A stretch of 43,209 bases of DNA, from assembly GCA_016183575.1 (NCBI GenBank), contig JACPEI010000021.1, positions 1-43,209 on the forward strand. Reading direction: 5' to 3'. Below, in pieces: positions 28,620-39,135 of this stretch; positions within the stretch are counted from its first letter, which is position 1, and each line of letters opens with the position of its first letter. Origin of the DNA: Nitrosomonadales bacterium. GTDB taxonomy: Bacteria; Pseudomonadota; Gammaproteobacteria; Burkholderiales; Gallionellaceae. Under the pieces are notes generated by a model, which did not search any database, was not told the DNA's origin, and saw only the letters and a list, made by a program, of their open reading frames with translations. The translations under genes were made by a program, and so were the position numbers.

Positions 28620-29840
28620 TCAGAACTCATAGCGTACCTGGAGGTACAAGTTGTCGTCGCGCGCGAGTTGCCCGAACTGGCCCCACGGCTTGCCGCCGAA
28701 GAAGTTGGCGCCGACCGCGCCCCATACCCTGTCGGTGAAACTGTAGCGCAGCTCCGGATTTACGAAGTGGTCGCCGTTGCTGGCGTTGTATGAGGCGTAT
28801 GCGGAAAACCGCAGCGTCTGGTGCAGGAATAATTGCGTCAGCCGCGCCGTCACGGTATGGCTCCAGCGCTTGTCGACCGGAAAGCCGGCGGGCAGCGTGG
28901 CGAGGTAGGCATCGTAGTCGTGCATGATTTCTGCATAGTACTGAAAACCGAGCGAGGTATCCTCCGCCGGCTGCGTCTGGTAGCCGGCGAGCAGGCGCGT
29001 CTGCGAGTTAGGCACGGCAAAGTCGTTACCCGCACGATCCTCAGGCGAATCGTAGTAAGCCGCTTCCAGGCTCAGCACCCCGTCTCCCGCGCGACCGGAC
29101 AGGCTGGCGCCGTAGATCGCAAGCCTGGGATAGAAATACGTGATCTTCGCCGGCGCCGTCATGTTGTCCGGTCGCATCGAGGGCGTGCGCTGGAAGCCAC
29201 GATACCAGTAGAGCGCCGCATCATAGCCGGCAACATCGCGGTAAGCGCGCAACGCAACGTCTCCTTCTTCCGGTTTGACGGTTTCGCGGTTGACGACCGC
29301 TGGCATCGGGTCGTAAAGCCAGAATCGGCCAGCATCTGGTGTGCGGCTCTCACGGAAATTCGGCGCCAGCACCAGCTCGAACGAAGCGAACTCGGGATAG
29401 GCGCCCAGCTTCATCGCATCCACGCCGCGCTTGAGGTATTCCAGCGGTCGCCCGGCGAACAGCGCCTCATGATCTTTGGGAAAGAAGTCGTTCACGAACA
29501 CCAGGTCGCCCAAGCCCCAGGTGATGACCTGCCTGCCAAGGCGCAAATCCCAGTTGTCTCCCGCATAATCGACGTAGCCTTCGCGCAATTCACTCTCATT
29601 CTGGCGACCAAGATGATCATAGGCCAGATCGCCCTTCGCCAGCAGCCGCCAGGCATCGCCGCTGGCGTCGAGCTTGATTTGGGCGCGCTCCTCCAGCCAC
29701 TTGTAATGGCGGCCATCGGGATTCTGCCCGGCGGTGTTGAAGGCCGTGTTCTGCTGCAGGAAGCCGGAGAGCGTGATCTCCGCCCGCGCCACCAGCGGCG
29801 TCAACAGAAGAACCGCAGAGAGCGTGGCCGTTCGCAGCAT
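28620..29840 (-). CDS. Outer-membrane beta-barrel protein (DUF1302-like)
   Basis: Signal peptide; alternating strand pattern; LRLGRQVITWGLGDLVFVNDFFPKDHEALF; C-terminal YLQVRYEF. Confidence 0.75.
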   Translation of the reverse strand: MLRTATLSAVLLLTPLVARAEITLSGFLQQNTAFNTAGQNPDGRHYKWLEERAQIKLDASGDAWRLLAKGDLAYDHLGRQNESELREGYVDYAGDNWDLRLGRQVITWGLGDLVFVNDFFPKDHEALFAGRPLEYLKRGVDAMKLGAYPEFASFELVLAPNFRESRTPDAGRFWLYDPMPAVVNRETVKPEEGDVALRAYRDVAGYDAALYWYRGFQRTPSMRPDNMTAPAKITYFYPRLAIYGASLSGRAGDGVLSLEAAYYDSPEDRAGNDFAVPNSQTRLLAGYQTQPAEDTSLGFQYYAEIMHDYDAYLATLPAGFPVDKRWSHTVTARLTQLFLHQTLRFSAYASYNASNGDHFVNPELRYSFTDRVWGAVGANFFGGKPWGQFGQLARDDNLYLQVRYEF

Positions 29841-30733
29841 CAGTCAACCCATTTGCGCGGCGGCTGGCGCAGGAATCGTTCGGAGAACAGGCTGTCCTCG
29901 AGGCCGAGGCCGTAGCCGGTTTTGAGGTAAGCGACTTCGGTGCGGTGGCCGGTCTGCAAATTTTTCATGGTGCGCTTGACCACCGTGGGAATGCCATTTA
30001 CCTCGGCAATTTCATCGGCGCTGAACTGCTTGTAACGTGCGCCTTTCCTGTCGTATTGCTCTTCCTTGAGCGGCAAAAAATTGGCTTTGTCCACCCAGGT
30101 GAACTTGTAGCCGAAGTCCGAGTCCGCGCCTTTCGGCGTACTCTTCACCACGTAGCAGTCGCGGTCGCCCACTTTCTCCTCGCGCTCGACGACGTGGGTA
30201 TCGTCCTCGATGTCGCGCCCTGAAACGTCTTCGTAGGTGAAGTCGGAGCCGACGAAGCTGGAGCGCTTGTCCTGCGCGGCGATGCGCTTGACCATGCTGA
30301 TCGCCGGGATGAACATCCAGCGGTCGTCATCCTTGGCCGGATACTTGTTGATCATGAAGGTCATGTCCTTGACATCGGACGGCTGAAAGAAATACATGAA
30401 GTACTTCTGGTCGCCACCTGATTCGCCCATATTTTTGCGCAGCATCGTGAGTTCTCGCACCCGCTCCTGGCCGTCCTTGTTGATGAGTTTCATCACCACC
30501 CGCGCCTTGAAGTCCTTGCCCGGATAGAGGAAGGCGGCCTGCGATTTTTCCATCACCTCCTCGCCCGAGAGAGCGTGCGCCTGGTTCGAGAATGCAAAAG
30601 GCAGCAGAGCGGCGATTATCCATATCCACCAGTGTTTAGTTCCGGCATAACGCGCTTCGCGCATTAGCCTTCTCTGAAGTGACGTAAGCAGGTATTTCGC
30701 CGAAAGGCGAAAGCTCGCAAACTTCGTTTTCAT
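29840..30733 (-). CDS. LolA-like 'outer membrane lipoprotein-sorting' family protein
   Basis: MEKSQAAFLYPGKDFKARVVMKLINKDGQERVRELTMLRKN...FFQPSDVKDMTFMI...DRWMFIPAISMVKRIAAQDKRSSFVGSDFTYEDVSGR; start overlaps the downstream barrel gene as TGATG. Confidence 0.85.
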   Translation of the reverse strand: MKTKFASFRLSAKYLLTSLQRRLMREARYAGTKHWWIWIIAALLPFAFSNQAHALSGEEVMEKSQAAFLYPGKDFKARVVMKLINKDGQERVRELTMLRKNMGESGGDQKYFMYFFQPSDVKDMTFMINKYPAKDDDRWMFIPAISMVKRIAAQDKRSSFVGSDFTYEDVSGRDIEDDTHVVEREEKVGDRDCYVVKSTPKGADSDFGYKFTWVDKANFLPLKEEQYDRKGARYKQFSADEIAEVNGIPTVVKRTMKNLQTGHRTEVAYLKTGYGLGLEDSLFSERFLRQPPRKWVD

Positions 30734-30748
30734 TTCAGTCTCCTTATG

Positions 30749-30867
30749 AATGTGAAACTCGCATAGCGATTCATTCGCCTCCTCGCCCGCTTGCGGGAGA
30801 GGATTGAGGAGAGGGAACGGGCATGGCAAGTTCATTATTATGGGGTGGCTACTTGCCATGCCCGTTC
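30749..30867. repeat. Dispersed repeat, copy 1, with a 16-bp perfect inverted repeat
   Basis: gaacgggcatggcaag (30815-30830) / cttgccatgcccgttc (30852-30867); flanking aatgtgaaactcgcatagcgattcattcgcctcctcgcccgcttgcgggag resembles 38730-38813. Confidence 0.82.
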
Positions 30868-33206
30868 GCAAGTGCCGGGGCGGCGTCCGCCGTCGGCTTC
30901 GGTTCGTCAAACAGCCAATGTCGCCCGAGCATCACCAGTGCGGGCAGATAGAGAATGGTGAGCAGCGCGGAGAGCAGCATCATCGAGACGATGAAGGCGC
31001 CCACCGCGATGTAGGGCGTGAGGGGCGCGAACAGCATCACCGAGAAGGCAGAAGCGAACAGCAGCGCATTGCGCAGAATTCCCTTGCCCGGCCGCGCCGC
31101 CGTCCACAGCAGCGCCTCACGCAATGCCCCCTCATTCGTGCCACCGCCGGTCTCGGCCAGACGCTGGCGGAAGCGGCTGATGAAGTGGATGGAAAAATCC
31201 ACCGCCATGCCGAGCGACAGCGTGCTCAGCACGGACAGCGGCATATCGAAATCCTTGCCGGAGAAGCCGACCACGCCGTAGATCAGCAGGATGGTGAACA
31301 GCAGCGGCATGTAGCCGACCAGCGCCCATCCGACCGAGCGGAAGTTAAGGGCAAGGATGACAAACACCACGACCAGTGCCAGCGTGAAACCCAGCACCAT
31401 GTCGCCCAGCACCTCGTCATTCCACACCAGATTGAACCAAGCGACGCCCGCCGGTTTCACGGTAACGGCGAGCGGATGGGACTTCTGATAGTCTGCGGCG
31501 GCGTCAATTACTTGGCGCATGGCTTCCGCATCCCATGTCTTGATCTGTACCCAAACGTTCGCCTTCTGGAATGCGGAATCGACCACGTTATCCAGGTCTG
31601 CGGGTTTGGCCGACATGCTGAAGAGAAATAGATACTGGCCAACGGCCTCTTTCGTTTCCGGCACCGCATCGAATTCCGGATCGCCGTCATGCAGCACGCG
31701 GTTGATGCGCTTCACGTAATCGGCCACCGAAAAGGTCTTCCCCACTACCGGCAGTTGCTCGATGTGGCGTTGCAGACCTTCGAGCCAGCGCATGGCTTCC
31801 GGCCGCTTCATGAATTCCGGTTCGTTGGCCTGCACCACCAGATAGCCGAGCGAAGTGCCGCCCAAGGCTTGGCTCATCGCCGTATCGGCCATACGGATTT
31901 CACTCGATTGCTTGAACCAGGCCACCAGATTGTTGTTGACGTGTATCTTCGTGGTGCCGGCAATCGCGACGGCCACGAGGACAAGCCCGACCAGCACGGT
32001 GGCCAGCGGACGTGTCATGCCCACTTCGGCGATGCGGCGCAGGAAACGGGCTGTGCGGTCCAGCTCTACGCTCTCGCTCTCAGCGGCTTTGGCGATCTTC
32101 TCTTCCTTGACAAAGGTGAGGATGGCCGGAATCAGGCTGAAGGAGAACAGCCGCAGCACCACCGTACCGAGGGCGATCAGCCCGCCGAACACCATCACCG
32201 GCACGATGTTCATGAACAGCAGCACGGCGAAGCCGGCCGTGGTGGCGAGCGCCGTGTAGCGCACCGGACGGCTCACCGCCGCCATGGTCTCGCGGATCGC
32301 CACAAGCTTATCTCCGCGCTCCCGGTAGCGGAAATAGAACTCGTTGAAGATATGGATACTGTCGGTGGCGATAGCCATCAGAAATACCGGCGCCATCGAG
32401 CTCATGATATGCACCGGATAGCCGGCGCCGATCAGCGACCCCATGCTCAGGATAATCGCCGCCATGGCTACGCCCATCATGGTGAACGACAAGGACATGT
32501 TGCGGAACATGAGCTGAATGGCGATAAACATGATCATGCCTGCGACCGGTGAGAAAATGCCCATCAGCTTGAACATTTCGGCGCCGAAGGTATCGCGCGC
32601 CACCGGGTCGCCGGCGACGTAGTAGCGCTCCGACCCTTTCTCAGCGGACACGATCTCGCGGATATTGGCGGCGATGACGGCGCCATTGGCGCCCTTCTCC
32701 AGCGGCACATAAATGGCCGTGGTCTTGCCGTCCTTCGAGATCACGCGGTCAACCAGCAGCGGGTTGCCGAACAGCGCGGTACGCAGCGCTTCCACTTCCG
32801 CATCTGTCTGCGGCGCGCCCGGCATCAGCGGGCCGACTTTGAGAGTGCCGGCCTCCGCCGTGACATTGGTGATGGTGGTGAAGCTATTTACATCGCGGCT
32901 CGCCACGCCTTCCAGCTTGATGATTGCGTCGGTGACGCGGGCGATGCGAGTCAGAGTTTCCCGGTTGAGCACACCCGCATTGTTTTCCACGCCGACGACG
33001 ATGGTGTCCTCGTACAGCGCGAAAGTTTTGTCCACCTCGTCGTTCCACACGCGCACGTCGGAGTTTTCCGGCAGCATGTGCTTCGGGTTGGTGTCCGTAG
33101 CGATGTGCGGAAACTGGGTGAGAAACAACAGCGTGAGCGCCACCGTCGCCCAGACAACCAGCTTCGGGCGGCGGATGGAAAATTCGACGAGCGAGAATTT
33201 GAACAT
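30849..33206 (-). CDS. MMPL/RND-superfamily exporter (about 785 aa)
   Basis: Two RND-like halves, DTNPKHMLPENSDVRVWNDEVDKTF, ATDSIHIFNEFYFRYRERGD, GMAVDFSIHFISRFRQRL. Confidence 0.9.
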   Translation of the reverse strand: MFKFSLVEFSIRRPKLVVWATVALTLLFLTQFPHIATDTNPKHMLPENSDVRVWNDEVDKTFALYEDTIVVGVENNAGVLNRETLTRIARVTDAIIKLEGVASRDVNSFTTITNVTAEAGTLKVGPLMPGAPQTDAEVEALRTALFGNPLLVDRVISKDGKTTAIYVPLEKGANGAVIAANIREIVSAEKGSERYYVAGDPVARDTFGAEMFKLMGIFSPVAGMIMFIAIQLMFRNMSLSFTMMGVAMAAIILSMGSLIGAGYPVHIMSSMAPVFLMAIATDSIHIFNEFYFRYRERGDKLVAIRETMAAVSRPVRYTALATTAGFAVLLFMNIVPVMVFGGLIALGTVVLRLFSFSLIPAILTFVKEEKIAKAAESESVELDRTARFLRRIAEVGMTRPLATVLVGLVLVAVAIAGTTKIHVNNNLVAWFKQSSEIRMADTAMSQALGGTSLGYLVVQANEPEFMKRPEAMRWLEGLQRHIEQLPVVGKTFSVADYVKRINRVLHDGDPEFDAVPETKEAVGQYLFLFSMSAKPADLDNVVDSAFQKANVWVQIKTWDAEAMRQVIDAAADYQKSHPLAVTVKPAGVAWFNLVWNDEVLGDMVLGFTLALVVVFVILALNFRSVGWALVGYMPLLFTILLIYGVVGFSGKDFDMPLSVLSTLSLGMAVDFSIHFISRFRQRLAETGGGTNEGALREALLWTAARPGKGILRNALLFASAFSVMLFAPLTPYIAVGAFIVSMMLLSALLTILYLPALVMLGRHWLFDEPKPTADAAPALANGHGK

Positions 33207-33220
33207 GGCAGTCCCTTCAA

Positions 33221-33889
33221 TTATTGGCGGCGACCCGGCAGCACATCTGCGGCAACGGCGATGAAGCCCCCGCATCCCGGCAGCCAGCGCCGCAACAGCG
33301 GCTCCAGGCGCCGGCTCCAGCGCTTGCCGCCGGGTATTGTGATTGCGGTGCCGAGACCGGCACGATGCGCCTGCAGCCCGTCAAACAGGCGCAGCGCCTC
33401 GGCGGGCGTATGCCAGCGCGCGCCGCGGTAGGCGCCACGGCCGCCGCGTCTGCCTTTGGCGAGGTAGAGCAGACTATGCCGGTTGAGCAGCCCCAGCACC
33501 ACCCGGCGCCGGGCCACGCGCAACATTTCGCGCAGCGCCTGCTTTTCTTCCCGGATGAAGCACAGGGCAGTAATGCTGACGACCAGATCGAAACTGCCAT
33601 CGCGGAAAGGCAGTCGGCGCGCATCCGCCACCACGAAGCCGATGCCGCGCGCCGAGTGTCCAGCGGCAAAACGGAGCATGACCGAATCGATGTCGGCGCC
33701 GACCACATTTCCGTTTGCGGCATCGGTCGCGAATCGGCGCGTGAAATAGCCGGTGCCGCAACCGGCATCGAGCAATGTCTCACCTGGGCGGGGCGCAAGC
33801 AGTGATGCGATCAGGCGATACTCTTCTTCCCCGATCCATGCGCCCCTCTGTGTCGCATACCAGGCGTCGTATTGTTCCGGTTGTATAAT
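33221..33889 (-). CDS. Class I SAM-dependent methyltransferase; start codon uncertain
   Basis: QPEQYDAWYATQRGAWIGEEEYRLIASLLAPRPGETLLDAGCGTGYFTRRFA; motif I DAGCGTG, ADARRLPFRDGSFDLVVS. Upstream of the TTG at TLLDAGCG the frame has no ATG/GTG/TTG back to an in-frame TAG. Confidence 0.8.
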   Translation of the reverse strand: MIQPEQYDAWYATQRGAWIGEEEYRLIASLLAPRPGETLLDAGCGTGYFTRRFATDAANGNVVGADIDSVMLRFAAGHSARGIGFVVADARRLPFRDGSFDLVVSITALCFIREEKQALREMLRVARRRVVLGLLNRHSLLYLAKGRRGGRGAYRGARWHTPAEALRLFDGLQAHRAGLGTAITIPGGKRWSRRLEPLLRRWLPGCGGFIAVAADVLPGRRQ

Positions 33890-33896
33890 TATTTCT

Positions 33897-35048
33897 TCAG
33901 AAACGCCGGTACAGCCAGTGTTTCTCGTAGAGGATTTTGCCCATGTGCCAGAAGCGATTTGGTCCGCGCATTTCTACTTGCGGCGTCGGCTCGGCATAAA
34001 AATTACCCTTGCCGATACCGGCGCGACCGCCGCCGGTTTCGATGAAGCACATGCCTTCACCGGCAAATTGGCGCGGTGCGCCCTTGCCAGTCCAGGCATG
34101 GGCGATGTTGTGCGCCACGACCTCCGCCTGGCCGTGGGCAAACACGCCAGCCTTGGGCAAAGGACGCCCCATCTTGAGCGGAATGGTGGTGATATCGCCG
34201 AGCGCAAAGACGTTGTCGAATTGTGTTTGCAGCGTGTTGCGGTCGACGGAAACCCAGCCGCTTTCGTTGGTCAAGCCCGCATCGCGCACCACCGCTGGCG
34301 CGCGATGCGGCGGGACATAAAGCAGCAGGTCGTACTCGGCGCTCGCGCCATTGGCGAATGAAATGCGGCGATTGGCCGGGTCAACCTCTTTCACCTGGTG
34401 CTCGGGGTGATAAGCGATGCCGCGCGCCTCGACCATCCCGCGCACGGCGGCGCCCAGTTCGGGGCCGGCGACGAACATCGGCCGCGGTTCGGCGGCGAAA
34501 AACTCTATTTCGGCTTTCTCGCGCAGGCCGCGCTTGCGCAGATAGCTGTCGACCAGCAACGCGGTCTCGTAGGGCGCAGCCGGGCACTTGTATTGCGGTG
34601 CCGCGGTCAGGACGACGATGCGCCCGCCCGAAAACCGGGCCAGCGCATCGCGGATCGCGGTCGCGCCTTCCATCGTGTAGATGCAAAGCCCGGCTTCGGC
34701 GAGGCCGGGGATGGTCTCCGGCGCATACTCCGCACCCAGCGCAGTCACCAGCGCATCGGCACGCAGGGTTTGCCCGTCGATTTCCACTTCCCGCTGAACT
34801 GGATCGATCCGCGTGACGCTGCCCTGGCGAAACTCGATGCCGCGACGCAGCAGCCGATCCAGCGGCCGGGAAAATTCTTCCGGGCTTCGCTCGCCCACCA
34901 TCAGCCATAACAGTGACGGCGGAAAAAAATGCTGCCCGGCGCGATCCACCGCAATCACGCGGTCGGAGGCGGGCAGCAGCTTGCGCAATGTCTCGGCGGC
35001 AACGATGCCGCCGATTCCCGCGCCCAATACCAACGCTGTGCGGCTCAT
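33897..35048 (-). CDS. FAD-dependent oxidoreductase, sulfide:quinone oxidoreductase-like
   Basis: LVLGAGIGGIVAAETL, cysteine motif QYKCPAAPYE, FALGDITTIPLKMGRPLPKAGVFAHGQAEVVAHNIAH, GMCFIETGGGRAG. Confidence 0.82.
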   Translation of the reverse strand: MSRTALVLGAGIGGIVAAETLRKLLPASDRVIAVDRAGQHFFPPSLLWLMVGERSPEEFSRPLDRLLRRGIEFRQGSVTRIDPVQREVEIDGQTLRADALVTALGAEYAPETIPGLAEAGLCIYTMEGATAIRDALARFSGGRIVVLTAAPQYKCPAAPYETALLVDSYLRKRGLREKAEIEFFAAEPRPMFVAGPELGAAVRGMVEARGIAYHPEHQVKEVDPANRRISFANGASAEYDLLLYVPPHRAPAVVRDAGLTNESGWVSVDRNTLQTQFDNVFALGDITTIPLKMGRPLPKAGVFAHGQAEVVAHNIAHAWTGKGAPRQFAGEGMCFIETGGGRAGIGKGNFYAEPTPQVEMRGPNRFWHMGKILYEKHWLYRRF

Positions 35049-35059
35049 CTCATTTCCCC

Positions 35060-35410
35060 TTAAAAAACGATGACTTTATCGGCCCACTGCGTCCACTCGG
35101 TGAGTTGATCCATGGTGCTGCGCGACGCGCCTTCGATCAGCTCCCCGGCGGCAATGCCGCGCGCATCCAGGCAACTGCCGCACGCGCCGACTTCGCCGCC
35201 ATGGTGTGCCACCATGCCCAGCATGTCGCCGACGTTGTAAAACCCCTGCGGCACCTTCTGCCCGTTTTTGGCGCATGCGGCCGCATCGCCGATAAGGAAC
35301 ATCTTGACCTCCGCTTCGCCCGTCTTGAGCAGCGAGCGCGCAAGCCGCAACCCGTTGTAGCTGCGCTCCGTGCCGTAAGGGGCGTCGTTCAGGATCATCA
35401 GATATTTCAT
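35060..35410 (-). CDS. DsrE/DsrF-like sulfur-relay family protein
   Basis: MKYLMILNDAPYGTERSYNGLRLARSLLK...VKMFLIGDAAACA...GACGSCLDARGI; strong SD ggaggaaattATG. Confidence 0.86.
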   Translation of the reverse strand: MKYLMILNDAPYGTERSYNGLRLARSLLKTGEAEVKMFLIGDAAACAKNGQKVPQGFYNVGDMLGMVAHHGGEVGACGSCLDARGIAAGELIEGASRSTMDQLTEWTQWADKVIVF

Positions 35411-35440
35411 AATTTCCTCCGTTGACCAGTATTGGTTCGC

Positions 35441-35471
35441 GTATTCTTAAGAACTTGAGAATACAAGTCAA
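35441..35471 (-). promoter_or_regulatory. Palindromic operator overlapping a sigma70-like promoter for the DsrE-SQR operon
   Basis: Palindrome gtattcttaagaacttgagaatac (35441-35464, arms 10/11); minus-strand TTGACT (35471-35466) - 17 nt - AAGAAT (35448-35443). Confidence 0.6.
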
Positions 35472-35529
35472 GGAATTTTTCAGATGATCGGTATCCGGGG
35501 TTCAATTCCTGGGGTGGTAGTACCGGGAG

Positions 35530-36198
35530 CTAATCAGGTGTGCCTGTGACCACAGGCAAGTTTCGCGCTTTCCACTCGGGGAATCCCTCTTCCAGCCGCC
35601 GCGCCTGGAAGCCTTTGCCGCGAAGCATCTCGATGGCCTCATAAGCGAGCATGCAATAGGGTCCCCGGCAATAAGCCACGATTTCCTGATCGTGGGGCAA
35701 TTGCTTCAACCGCTTGGGCAGTTTGTCGAGCGTGATATTGATTGCGCCGGGGATATGACCGGCCTCGTATTCTTCGGGCGGACGGACGTCGAGCACGATT
35801 GCCTCGCCGCTCCGCACCCTTTCCAGCAACTCATCCCGCTTGACCGGTGTCAGCTTGTCACGGTTTTCAAAGTTATCCCGGATGATGCGCTCCACTCCCG
35901 CCAGATGAAGCTCGGCCACCCTGCGGATACCCGCAACAACATCTATGACTCGCTCATCAGCCAGCCCGTAGATCACCTGCTGCCCTTCTTTCCGCGAAAC
36001 CAGCAATCCGGCATCGCGCAGAATCCGCAAGTGATGCGACACATTGGAGACGGTTCGGCTACATGATTTTGCGAGCGCATCGACGCTGCGCTCGCCTTGC
36101 GCAATCGCCTCTATCAACTCAAGCCGGTTCGGATGAGCAAGCGCCTTCGCCACATGGGCGAATAACTGAAACAGTTGTCTTTTCGGGTTTGAACCCAT
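35530..36198 (-). CDS. ArsR-family wHTH regulator fused to rhodanese domain
   Basis: ALAHPNRLELIEAIAQGERSVDALAKSCSRTVSNVSHHLRILRDAGLL then IVLDVRPPEEYEAGHIPGAINI...IVAYCRGPYCMLAYEA. Confidence 0.93.
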   Translation of the reverse strand: MGSNPKRQLFQLFAHVAKALAHPNRLELIEAIAQGERSVDALAKSCSRTVSNVSHHLRILRDAGLLVSRKEGQQVIYGLADERVIDVVAGIRRVAELHLAGVERIIRDNFENRDKLTPVKRDELLERVRSGEAIVLDVRPPEEYEAGHIPGAINITLDKLPKRLKQLPHDQEIVAYCRGPYCMLAYEAIEMLRGKGFQARRLEEGFPEWKARNLPVVTGTPD

Positions 36199-38234: not shown

Positions 38235-39135
38235 TCAGAATTTCCGCAGCACAATAAAGTCAGCAAGTTCGCGCAGGCGTTGCGCCGGTTCGCCGAACCC
38301 GTCCAGGGTTTCCAGCGCCTCGCGATGCAGCCGTTGCGCCATGTCGCGCGCGCCCTGTATGCCCAGCAGGCTGACATAGGTCGGCTTGTCGTTGTCCGCA
38401 TCCTTGCCCGCGGTCTTGCCCAGTGTCGCGGTGTCCGCCTCGCAGTCGAGTACATCGTCCACCACCTGGAACGCGAGGCCGATCAGCTTGCCGAAATGAT
38501 CCAGCCTGTCCAGTTGCGCCGCAGAGGCCGACCCGCATTGCGCGCCGAGCAACACGGCGGCACGGATCAGCGCGCCGGTCTTGTGGATATGCATGAATTC
38601 CAGTTCGGGGAGCGTGAGCGATTGGCCCACACTGGAAAGATCGATCGCCTGACCGCCCGCCATGCCGCGCGAACCGGAAGCCAGCGCGAGCAGTCTGACC
38701 ATTTCCAGCTGGCGCGCCGCATCGTCGTTAACGTGGAACTCGCGCAGCGATTCGTTTGCCCCTTCCCTCGCTTGCGGGGGAAGGTTGGGATGGGGGAAAC
38801 GGGCATGCCCGTTCAGGCGATGCTCCGCGAGCAACTGGAATGCCAGCGTTTGCAGGGCATCGCCGACCAGCAGCGCGGTCGCCTCGTCGTATTGCTTATG
38901 GCAGGGCGGCTTGCCGCGGCGCAGCACATCGTCGTCCATGCACGGCATATCGTCATGCACCAGCGAATAAGCGTGGATCATTTCCACGGCCGCCGCCGCA
39001 CGCGCCAGTTCAGCTTGATCAGCCGCGAACAATTCGCCGGCGGCGCGCGATTTCCGCGCGCGGCAGCAACCCGCACAGCACCTCCTCGAAGCGCGCCTGA
39101 TGCGCGGCGACCCAGCCCTGAAAATCCGCTCCCAT
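38235..39135 (-). pseudogene. ispA: Polyprenyl/farnesyl diphosphate synthase, frame-disrupted at the N-terminus
   Basis: Frame 1 from ATG at 39135: MGADFQGWVAAHQARFEEVLCGLLPRAEIARRRRIVRG*; frame 2 picks up as AAGELFAADQAELARAAAAVEMIHAYSLVHDDMPCMDDD...DDVLD. The expected GGKRxRP segment is missing. Confidence 0.75.
38730..38813. repeat. Dispersed repeat, copy 2, in frame within ispA
   Basis: 84 nt; encodes approximately NGHARFPHPNLPPQAREGANESLREFHVN; includes palindrome aacgggcatgcccgtt (38798-38813). Confidence 0.78.

Follow-up and report, generated by a model that had tools for sequence, protein, structure and literature searches.

The window analyzed here, a 43,209-nucleotide contig (JACPEI010000021.1) of a 1.55-Mb Gallionella-like metagenome-assembled genome with 79% completeness, carries a cluster in which genes of sulfane-sulfur chemistry adjoin those of a putative trans-envelope transporter. 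It encodes an ArsR-type regulator fused to a rhodanese domain, a DsrE-like protein, a flavoprotein resembling sulfide:quinone oxidoreductase (SQR), a methyltransferase, an MMPL transporter, a LolA-like protein, and an outer-membrane beta-barrel; the last three are referred to below as the trio. The trio and the sulfur genes are co-localized more often than expected by chance. We tentatively interpret the cluster as an ArsR-rhodanese-regulated system of sulfane-sulfur disposal, in which the SQR-like and DsrE proteins would make and carry the sulfur and the trio would export it as hydrophobic zero-valent sulfur, and we give this interpretation nearly an even chance. With slightly less confidence, we propose that the trio may be a dedicated cross-phylum trans-envelope transporter for S8 or long polysulfanes, coupled to SQR and DsrE, with the ArsR-rhodanese protein as its sensor.

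The co-localization was assessed in 80 loci (64–91% identical) retained after GTDB genomes were scanned with the MMPL family, for which open reading frame (ORF) families and profiles were called throughout. The loci came from Nitrospirota, Betaproteobacteria, deltaproteobacterial groups, Elusimicrobia, Bdellovibrionota, and Rokubacteria, and the carriers included Thermodesulfovibrionales. A LolA_like gene was found near MMPL in 75 of the 80 loci and a barrel gene in 72, together with SQR (55 loci), DsrE/F (49), rhodanese (37), DsrH (27), DsrE2 (23), and YeeE (14) genes. DsrE/F/H, DsrE2, SQR, or YeeE occurred within 8 kb of MMPL in 67 loci. The sulfur-gene domain matches were concentrated directly upstream of MMPL, with 170 matches at 0–4 kb, 4 at 4–6 kb, and none at 6–10 kb, and nearly all of them lay on the MMPL strand (DsrE/F, 79/79; SQR, 59/59; DsrH, 27/27). 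As a control, we used PF17131 loci of the same order outside the clade, nine of which contained an MMPL-LolA-barrel trio. Only one of these nine had a sulfur gene within reach, versus 67 of the 80 clade loci (Fisher p = 2.2e-5), a comparison to be read with the caveats that the loci are interrelated, that the control came from one order, and that the study loci themselves were used to build the profiles. The positional gradient is independent of the control. The first-pass annotation, which had proposed that sulfane-sulfur chemistry and the trio form one unit under an ArsR-type sensor, had named trios consistently lacking the DsrE, SQR, and methyltransferase genes as a finding that would overturn this idea. 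Instead, the synteny supports the unit strongly across phyla, and one relative (L053) carries the same seven genes, with the ArsR gene divergent.

The sulfur genes themselves were not the same throughout. In the beta-type clusters, the window-type SQR proteins were about 57–94% identical, whereas the SQR proteins of the Nitrospirota clusters were only about 26–32% identical to the window type, and the Dsr carriers also differed between the two cluster types. Therefore, the function recurs with different genes rather than as a single hitchhiking block. The Nitrospirota clusters add rhodanese, YeeE (PF04143), TauE, and DsrEFH-like genes; YeeE was not seen in the beta-type clusters. One family found at 13 loci (L112:3263-4648) is a YeeE/YedE-type permease of about 463 amino acids with four fully conserved cysteines; usually, a rhodanese and a small protein of about 132 amino acids (hyp13) lie with it between the MMPL and LolA genes. 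In a phylogenetic tree (FastTree only), the split between the MMPL clade and the control trios had full local support, and the phylum label Nitrospirota required at least six changes, a pattern compatible with transfer between phyla.

SQR proteins produce sulfane sulfur, and DsrE proteins carry persulfides. The window DsrE has the PF02635 domain and the active cysteine of its family, with a CxxC motif kept in 18/18 members. The flavoprotein shares with SQR and flavocytochrome c sulfide dehydrogenase the fold and two redox cysteines at equivalent positions (C155 and C334; a third is C122), which were conserved in 46/49 and 49/49 proteins across the loci, and its best relatives in the PDB were sulfide:quinone oxidoreductases (E 1.6e-34). 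Its FAD fold and two redox-active cysteines thus appear to be those of an SQR, with quinone reduction a putative activity, although it scored below the cut-off of its best NCBIfam SQR model, the type III SQR of the seleno subtype (235 of 525 bits). In three sister genomes that lack the trio (G021, G025, and G049), the window-type SQR gene is followed by a gene for a metallo-beta-lactamase-fold protein resembling persulfide dioxygenase (PDO-like) and an MFS gene, with an additional rhodanese in G021. In a further genome (G044), a C-terminal barrel remnant lies behind DsrE-SQR (L034:3763-3927) and is likely the relic of a lost trio. Because either the trio or a PDO-like gene stands behind SQR, the SQR-DsrE pair seems to be matched with a likely oxidative sink or with the envelope trio (with both in G011). 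The window genome, at 79% completeness, contained no soxB, no dsrA above the cut-off, and no copy of the PDO-like gene. This absence and the sink-or-trio pairing are the main reason for favoring the export of sulfane sulfur. Across 101 genomes, the trio showed no clear association with dsrA or soxB, with too few carriers for such a comparison.

The trio resembles a known kind of exporter. The MMPL protein matched PF03176 (94.5 bits versus a cut-off of 20.5) and, below its cut-off, the HAE3 model TIGR00921 (165 bits). Two transmembrane aspartates of the proton-relay type, Asp282 in the first half of the protein and Asp670 in the second, were kept in 81/81 clade sequences, whereas Asp282 occurred in 0/9 control trios. 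The Pfam domain and these residues are those of MMPL/HAE3 RND transporters. The nearest MMPL protein, from a Gallionellales bacterium, was 91% identical, and a PDB search returned SecD as the sole match. The LolA-like protein belongs to PF17131, matching DUF1329 only at the threshold, and its AlphaFold2 model (predicted local distance difference test [pLDDT] score, 81) has a predicted LolA fold, closest to 9tp6 (LolA3 of Porphyromonas), the DUF1329 structure 4z48, and 3bk5. A conserved cysteine of this protein was considered as a sulfur-binding site and rejected, because it is also present in most control LolA proteins and is therefore not specific. The barrel model (pLDDT 89) is many-stranded with a porin-like fold; its DUF1302 match was just over the cut-off, and a fold search returned only generic porins at a weak template modeling score of about 0.5, with no close solved relative. 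Among characterized machines, the closest is AmeABCD of Castellaniella defragrans, whose behavior is that of an apolar monoterpene exporter and which combines an HAE3-family RND protein, a LolA-superfamily protein, and a DUF1302 barrel (PMC6394551). The window cluster shares with it the HAE3-type RND transporter, the periplasmic LolA-superfamily protein, the DUF1302-type barrel, and co-location with genes for the metabolism of a hydrophobic substrate. However, AmeB is a DUF1329 protein, whereas the window LolA belongs to another LolA subfamily; no AmeC-like gene was seen in the window cluster; and no sulfur genes have been described for AmeABCD. The window set was therefore not assigned to the AmeABCD-type tetrapartite exporters, although the trio may work in a similar way.

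The regulator was initially annotated as a thiol sensor of the BigR/SqrR type. In BigR-type operons, an ArsR-fold repressor binding at the −10 region controls genes for sulfide oxidation and sulfane-sulfur disposal (PMC5823870). The window cluster has the same combination of an ArsR-fold repressor with sulfide and sulfane-sulfur genes, but its trio stands in the place of a dioxygenase, and its candidate sensor cysteines are in the fused rhodanese domain, not in the helix-turn-helix domain. SqrR and CstR are comparable repressors of sulfide and sulfane-sulfur genes. In 19 aligned ArsR-rhodanese proteins, the cysteine pair of the BigR type (Cys42/Cys108 in BigR) was absent and the only conserved cysteines were the two of the rhodanese motif CRGPYC (19/19), which rules out the BigR-type identity; the NF040642 score of the window regulator was 50 of 155 bits. 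This regulator ("class A") is about 51–59% identical to those of L053, L067, L100, and L108 and about 40% identical to those of most other relatives, which are of class B. An operator-like inverted repeat, TATTC-N12-GAATA, closely follows a TTGACT −35-like box and overlaps the putative DsrE promoter; it is the single match in the window, versus 0.02 expected from shuffles, and is a candidate ArsR operator. A full ATTC-N12-GAAT occurs upstream of DsrE in L108 and degenerate forms occur in L053 and L100, whereas this position is occupied by TCTAA..TTAGA-type repeats in class B loci. Because the window regulator is of another class and its DsrE promoter palindrome is also different, regulator and operator appear to have changed together. 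In six Nitrospirota loci (L061, L079, L080, L090, L093, and L119), the barrel is followed by genes for a PhnD-like binding protein and a sensor kinase, and for a sigma-54 activator where the contig reaches; this set is a possible second sensing layer. Three Gallionella loci (L031, L024, and L029) have an arsenite-methyltransferase-like gene near ArsR-rhodanese, with an early CC motif (MHxIVxDYYGKQL...ACCDA).

The ORF and Pfam domain checks bore out the order and spacing given in the first-pass annotation: the seven minus-strand genes are consecutive and each has its matching Pfam domain or domains (Table 1). The gaps are 11 nt between DsrE and SQR, about 0–10 nt between SQR and the methyltransferase, and 14 nt between the methyltransferase and MMPL, and LolA and the barrel overlap by 1 nt. 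The gap between MMPL and LolA is 115 nt and is filled by the repeat already noted in that annotation. In relatives, MMPL and LolA lie within about 10 nt of each other or overlap, and the repeat is absent at the junction; the gap is thus secondary and the repeat extraneous to the system. Three further inexact copies of this repeat occur elsewhere in the genome. The dispersed repeat sequence GCGAATGAATCGCTANGCGAGTT, with few genome copies, is found at window positions 30756-30778, inside this gap, and on contigs C46, C47, and C71 of genome G000, and a related repeat occupies the SQR-MMPL gap of G016 (L031:3307-3390). Just after the LolA-like start, an 87-nt in-frame insert at 30647-30733 (minus strand), common to L041 and probably also to L030, adds 29 residues (1–29) before the signal peptide. 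The whole cluster lies between dxs and folE2, which are about 7.8 kb apart in the window and 68–138 nt apart in 21 of the 22 same-genus genomes having both genes on one contig, and relatives carry the cluster at other genomic sites. It is thus an insertion at this site, and the cassette is mobile. In the same window, ispA (farnesyl diphosphate synthase; 38235-39135, minus strand) looks broken, with an apparent internal deletion and a frameshift near 39025, and its remainder holds an in-frame palindromic repeat insert (PHPNLPPQAREGANESLREFHV); this appearance could reflect an assembly error.

Table 1. Features of the cluster and their positions in the window
Feature	Position	Strand	Basis or remark
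Outer-membrane beta-barrel with signal peptide	28620..29840	-	Weak DUF1302/Wzi match
Periplasmic LolA_like carrier	29840..30733	-	PF17131 1e-59
Palindromic dispersed repeat, outside the system	30734..30848		Not at this junction in relatives
MMPL/HAE3-type RND inner-membrane transporter	30849..33206	-	PF03176
Class I methyltransferase, accessory	33221..33886 (5' limit approximate)	-	Methyltransf_11
SQR/flavocytochrome-c-sulfide-dehydrogenase-like flavoprotein	33897..35048	-	Pyr_redox_2, FCSD_central
DsrE/F-family sulfur-carrier protein with CxxC	35060..35410	-	PF02635 4e-26
Candidate ArsR operator TATTC-N12-GAATA	35442..35463		Overlaps putative DsrE promoter
ArsR-type winged-helix regulator with rhodanese domain, "class A"	35530..36198	-	Pfam HTH_5/HTH_20 and Rhodanese

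Because SQR makes and DsrE carries sulfane sulfur, and because AmeABCD exports apolar compounds, we infer an export of hydrophobic zero-valent sulfur, and the substrate, its direction, the sensing chemistry, and the order of steps given here are to be read in that conditional sense. Rising sulfide or persulfide would modify the rhodanese cysteines of the regulator, which would then detach from the operator overlapping the DsrE promoter. Sulfide would be oxidized to sulfane sulfur by the SQR-like flavoprotein, and DsrE would carry this sulfur as a cysteine persulfide. The product would be hydrophobic zero-valent sulfur (S8 or a long polysulfane), possibly with capping or S-methylation in loci that have a methyltransferase. 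A proton-driven MMPL pump would take it up and hand it to the periplasmic LolA-like carrier, and the barrel would release it outside the cell.

Several observations weigh against this interpretation. The trio and a PDO-like gene occur together in G011, and the oxidation genes absent from the window genome may lie on missing contigs. No sulfur gene is within reach in thirteen of the 80 clade loci, although six of these (L045, L049, L050, L066, L075, and L101) have about 10 kb on both sides, so that the trio can stand alone. A gene for a FadL/TodX-like outer-membrane protein lies convergently behind the barrel in the beta loci L045, L049, L050, L053, L054, L055, and L066, and upstream of MMPL in an eighth locus (L118); these loci mostly lack DsrE/SQR, and several sulfur-less beta loci have the FadL-like gene instead. 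SelD is present in a few Nitrospirota clusters (5 loci), which leaves room for selenium, and the import of zero-valent sulfur by relatives of YeeE/YedE would also fit an inward direction.

That direction is the basis of an alternative that we consider unlikely, in which the barrel, the LolA-like carrier, and MMPL bring extracellular elemental sulfur or polysulfide to DsrE, SQR, and Dsr for oxidation or disproportionation. YedE1E2 imports zero-valent sulfur, not the reverse (PMC10812762), and a YeeE/YedE-type permease is encoded in 14 of the 80 clusters; the FadL-like proteins, mostly beside the barrel, and the Thermodesulfovibrionales among the carriers also fit import. However, the characterized relative AmeABCD exports, the window genome has neither soxB nor dsrA above the cut-off with which to use imported sulfur, and the beta-type clusters lack a visible YeeE.

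In the version proposed by the first-pass annotation, a hydrophobic organic substrate (a methylated polysulfide or a sulfur lipid) is chemically modified by the flavoprotein and the methyltransferase and conveyed to the outer membrane by the trio. Methyltransferase domains do occur in 27 of the 80 clade loci, often between LolA and the barrel in Nitrospirota, the exact seven-gene set recurs in L053, and the window gene is still somewhat constrained, with ratios of nonsynonymous to synonymous substitution rates of 0.30 versus L053 and 0.18 versus L047 (neighboring genes, 0.09–0.15). However, the gene is missing from most loci, including those of close Gallionella relatives in which the rest is intact. 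In G011 it is internally deleted, with the two ends alone remaining, and in the window its 5' end has no in-frame ATG, GTG, or TTG, with ATA at 33886-33884 where L047 and L053 have ATG; possible explanations are a rare start codon, decay of the window gene, or an assembly error. The methyltransferase is thus accessory and no constant part of the cluster, and its role as a general core enzyme was rejected; modification by it as a central step is not supported, and this version is rather improbable.

We assign a similarly low probability to a system that expels a metalloid or thiophilic toxin (arsenic, selenium, mercury, or an organo-derivative) and whose sulfur proteins act in detoxification. 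The ArsR family of the regulators, the arsenite-methyltransferase-like gene in three Gallionella loci, the SelD genes, and the seleno subtype of the best, below-cut-off SQR model are compatible with it. Nevertheless, the ArsR-rhodanese regulators keep the rhodanese cysteines only, the partners that recur are proteins of sulfane-sulfur trafficking (DsrE/F/H, YeeE, and rhodanese), and the recurrent families included no known metalloid pump. Still less probable is envelope repair, in which the trio would move a membrane lipid to the outer membrane in response to sulfide or persulfide damage and sulfur would be the signal, not the cargo; LolA-like and HAE3/HpnN-type families handle lipids, but this leaves unexplained both the DsrE carrier and SQR producer as usual partners and the PDO-like gene in the place of the trio. 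Finally, a grouping of functionally unrelated genes, by chance or by joint carriage on a mobile cassette, is very improbable, although the cassette moves and DsrE-SQR and the trio each occur without the other. It is largely excluded by the control comparison and by synteny that is tight in position and strand across many phyla even though parts have been replaced by non-orthologous ones.

Two other known systems were compared with the cluster. The YTD/DsrEFH type II systems (PMC13293266, PMC12998232) have DsrE/F/H-like carriers, a YeeE/YedE permease as in the Nitrospirota clusters, and overlapping host phyla, but the window cluster lacks their yedE-tusA core, having neither gene, and was not assigned to them. 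A recurrent TusA family was likewise not noted in the Nitrospirota clusters, where YeeE is present and ORFs under 80 amino acids were not called. The searched papers on these systems make no mention of MMPL or LolA. HpnN is also an HAE3-related RND protein for a hydrophobic compound, but its partners are not the same, and hopanoid transport was rejected because the NCBIfam scores were far below the cut-offs (65.8 of 751.85 and 32.9 of 1100 bits). In the literature searched, mostly papers available without subscription, none was found that joins MMPL/LolA to DsrE/SQR or to sulfur. The known kind to which the trio belongs would be the HAE3-LolA-barrel exporter, and its sulfur-linked role, if proven, would be new.

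For globule-forming bacteria, the passage of insoluble elemental sulfur across the outer membrane is a stated open question, and vesicles are currently proposed for Chlorobaculum (PMC12285230). If the trio is a dedicated transporter as proposed above, the cluster would supply the missing machinery for placing elemental sulfur outside the cell without vesicles, and a conserved pump, periplasmic carrier, and barrel tied to SQR and DsrE constitute a directly testable candidate for this crossing. The gene set would also serve to mark Gallionella-like and Nitrospirota genomes with a capacity for handling sulfur, and zero-valent sulfur would possibly be a new class of cargo for LolA-like carriers.

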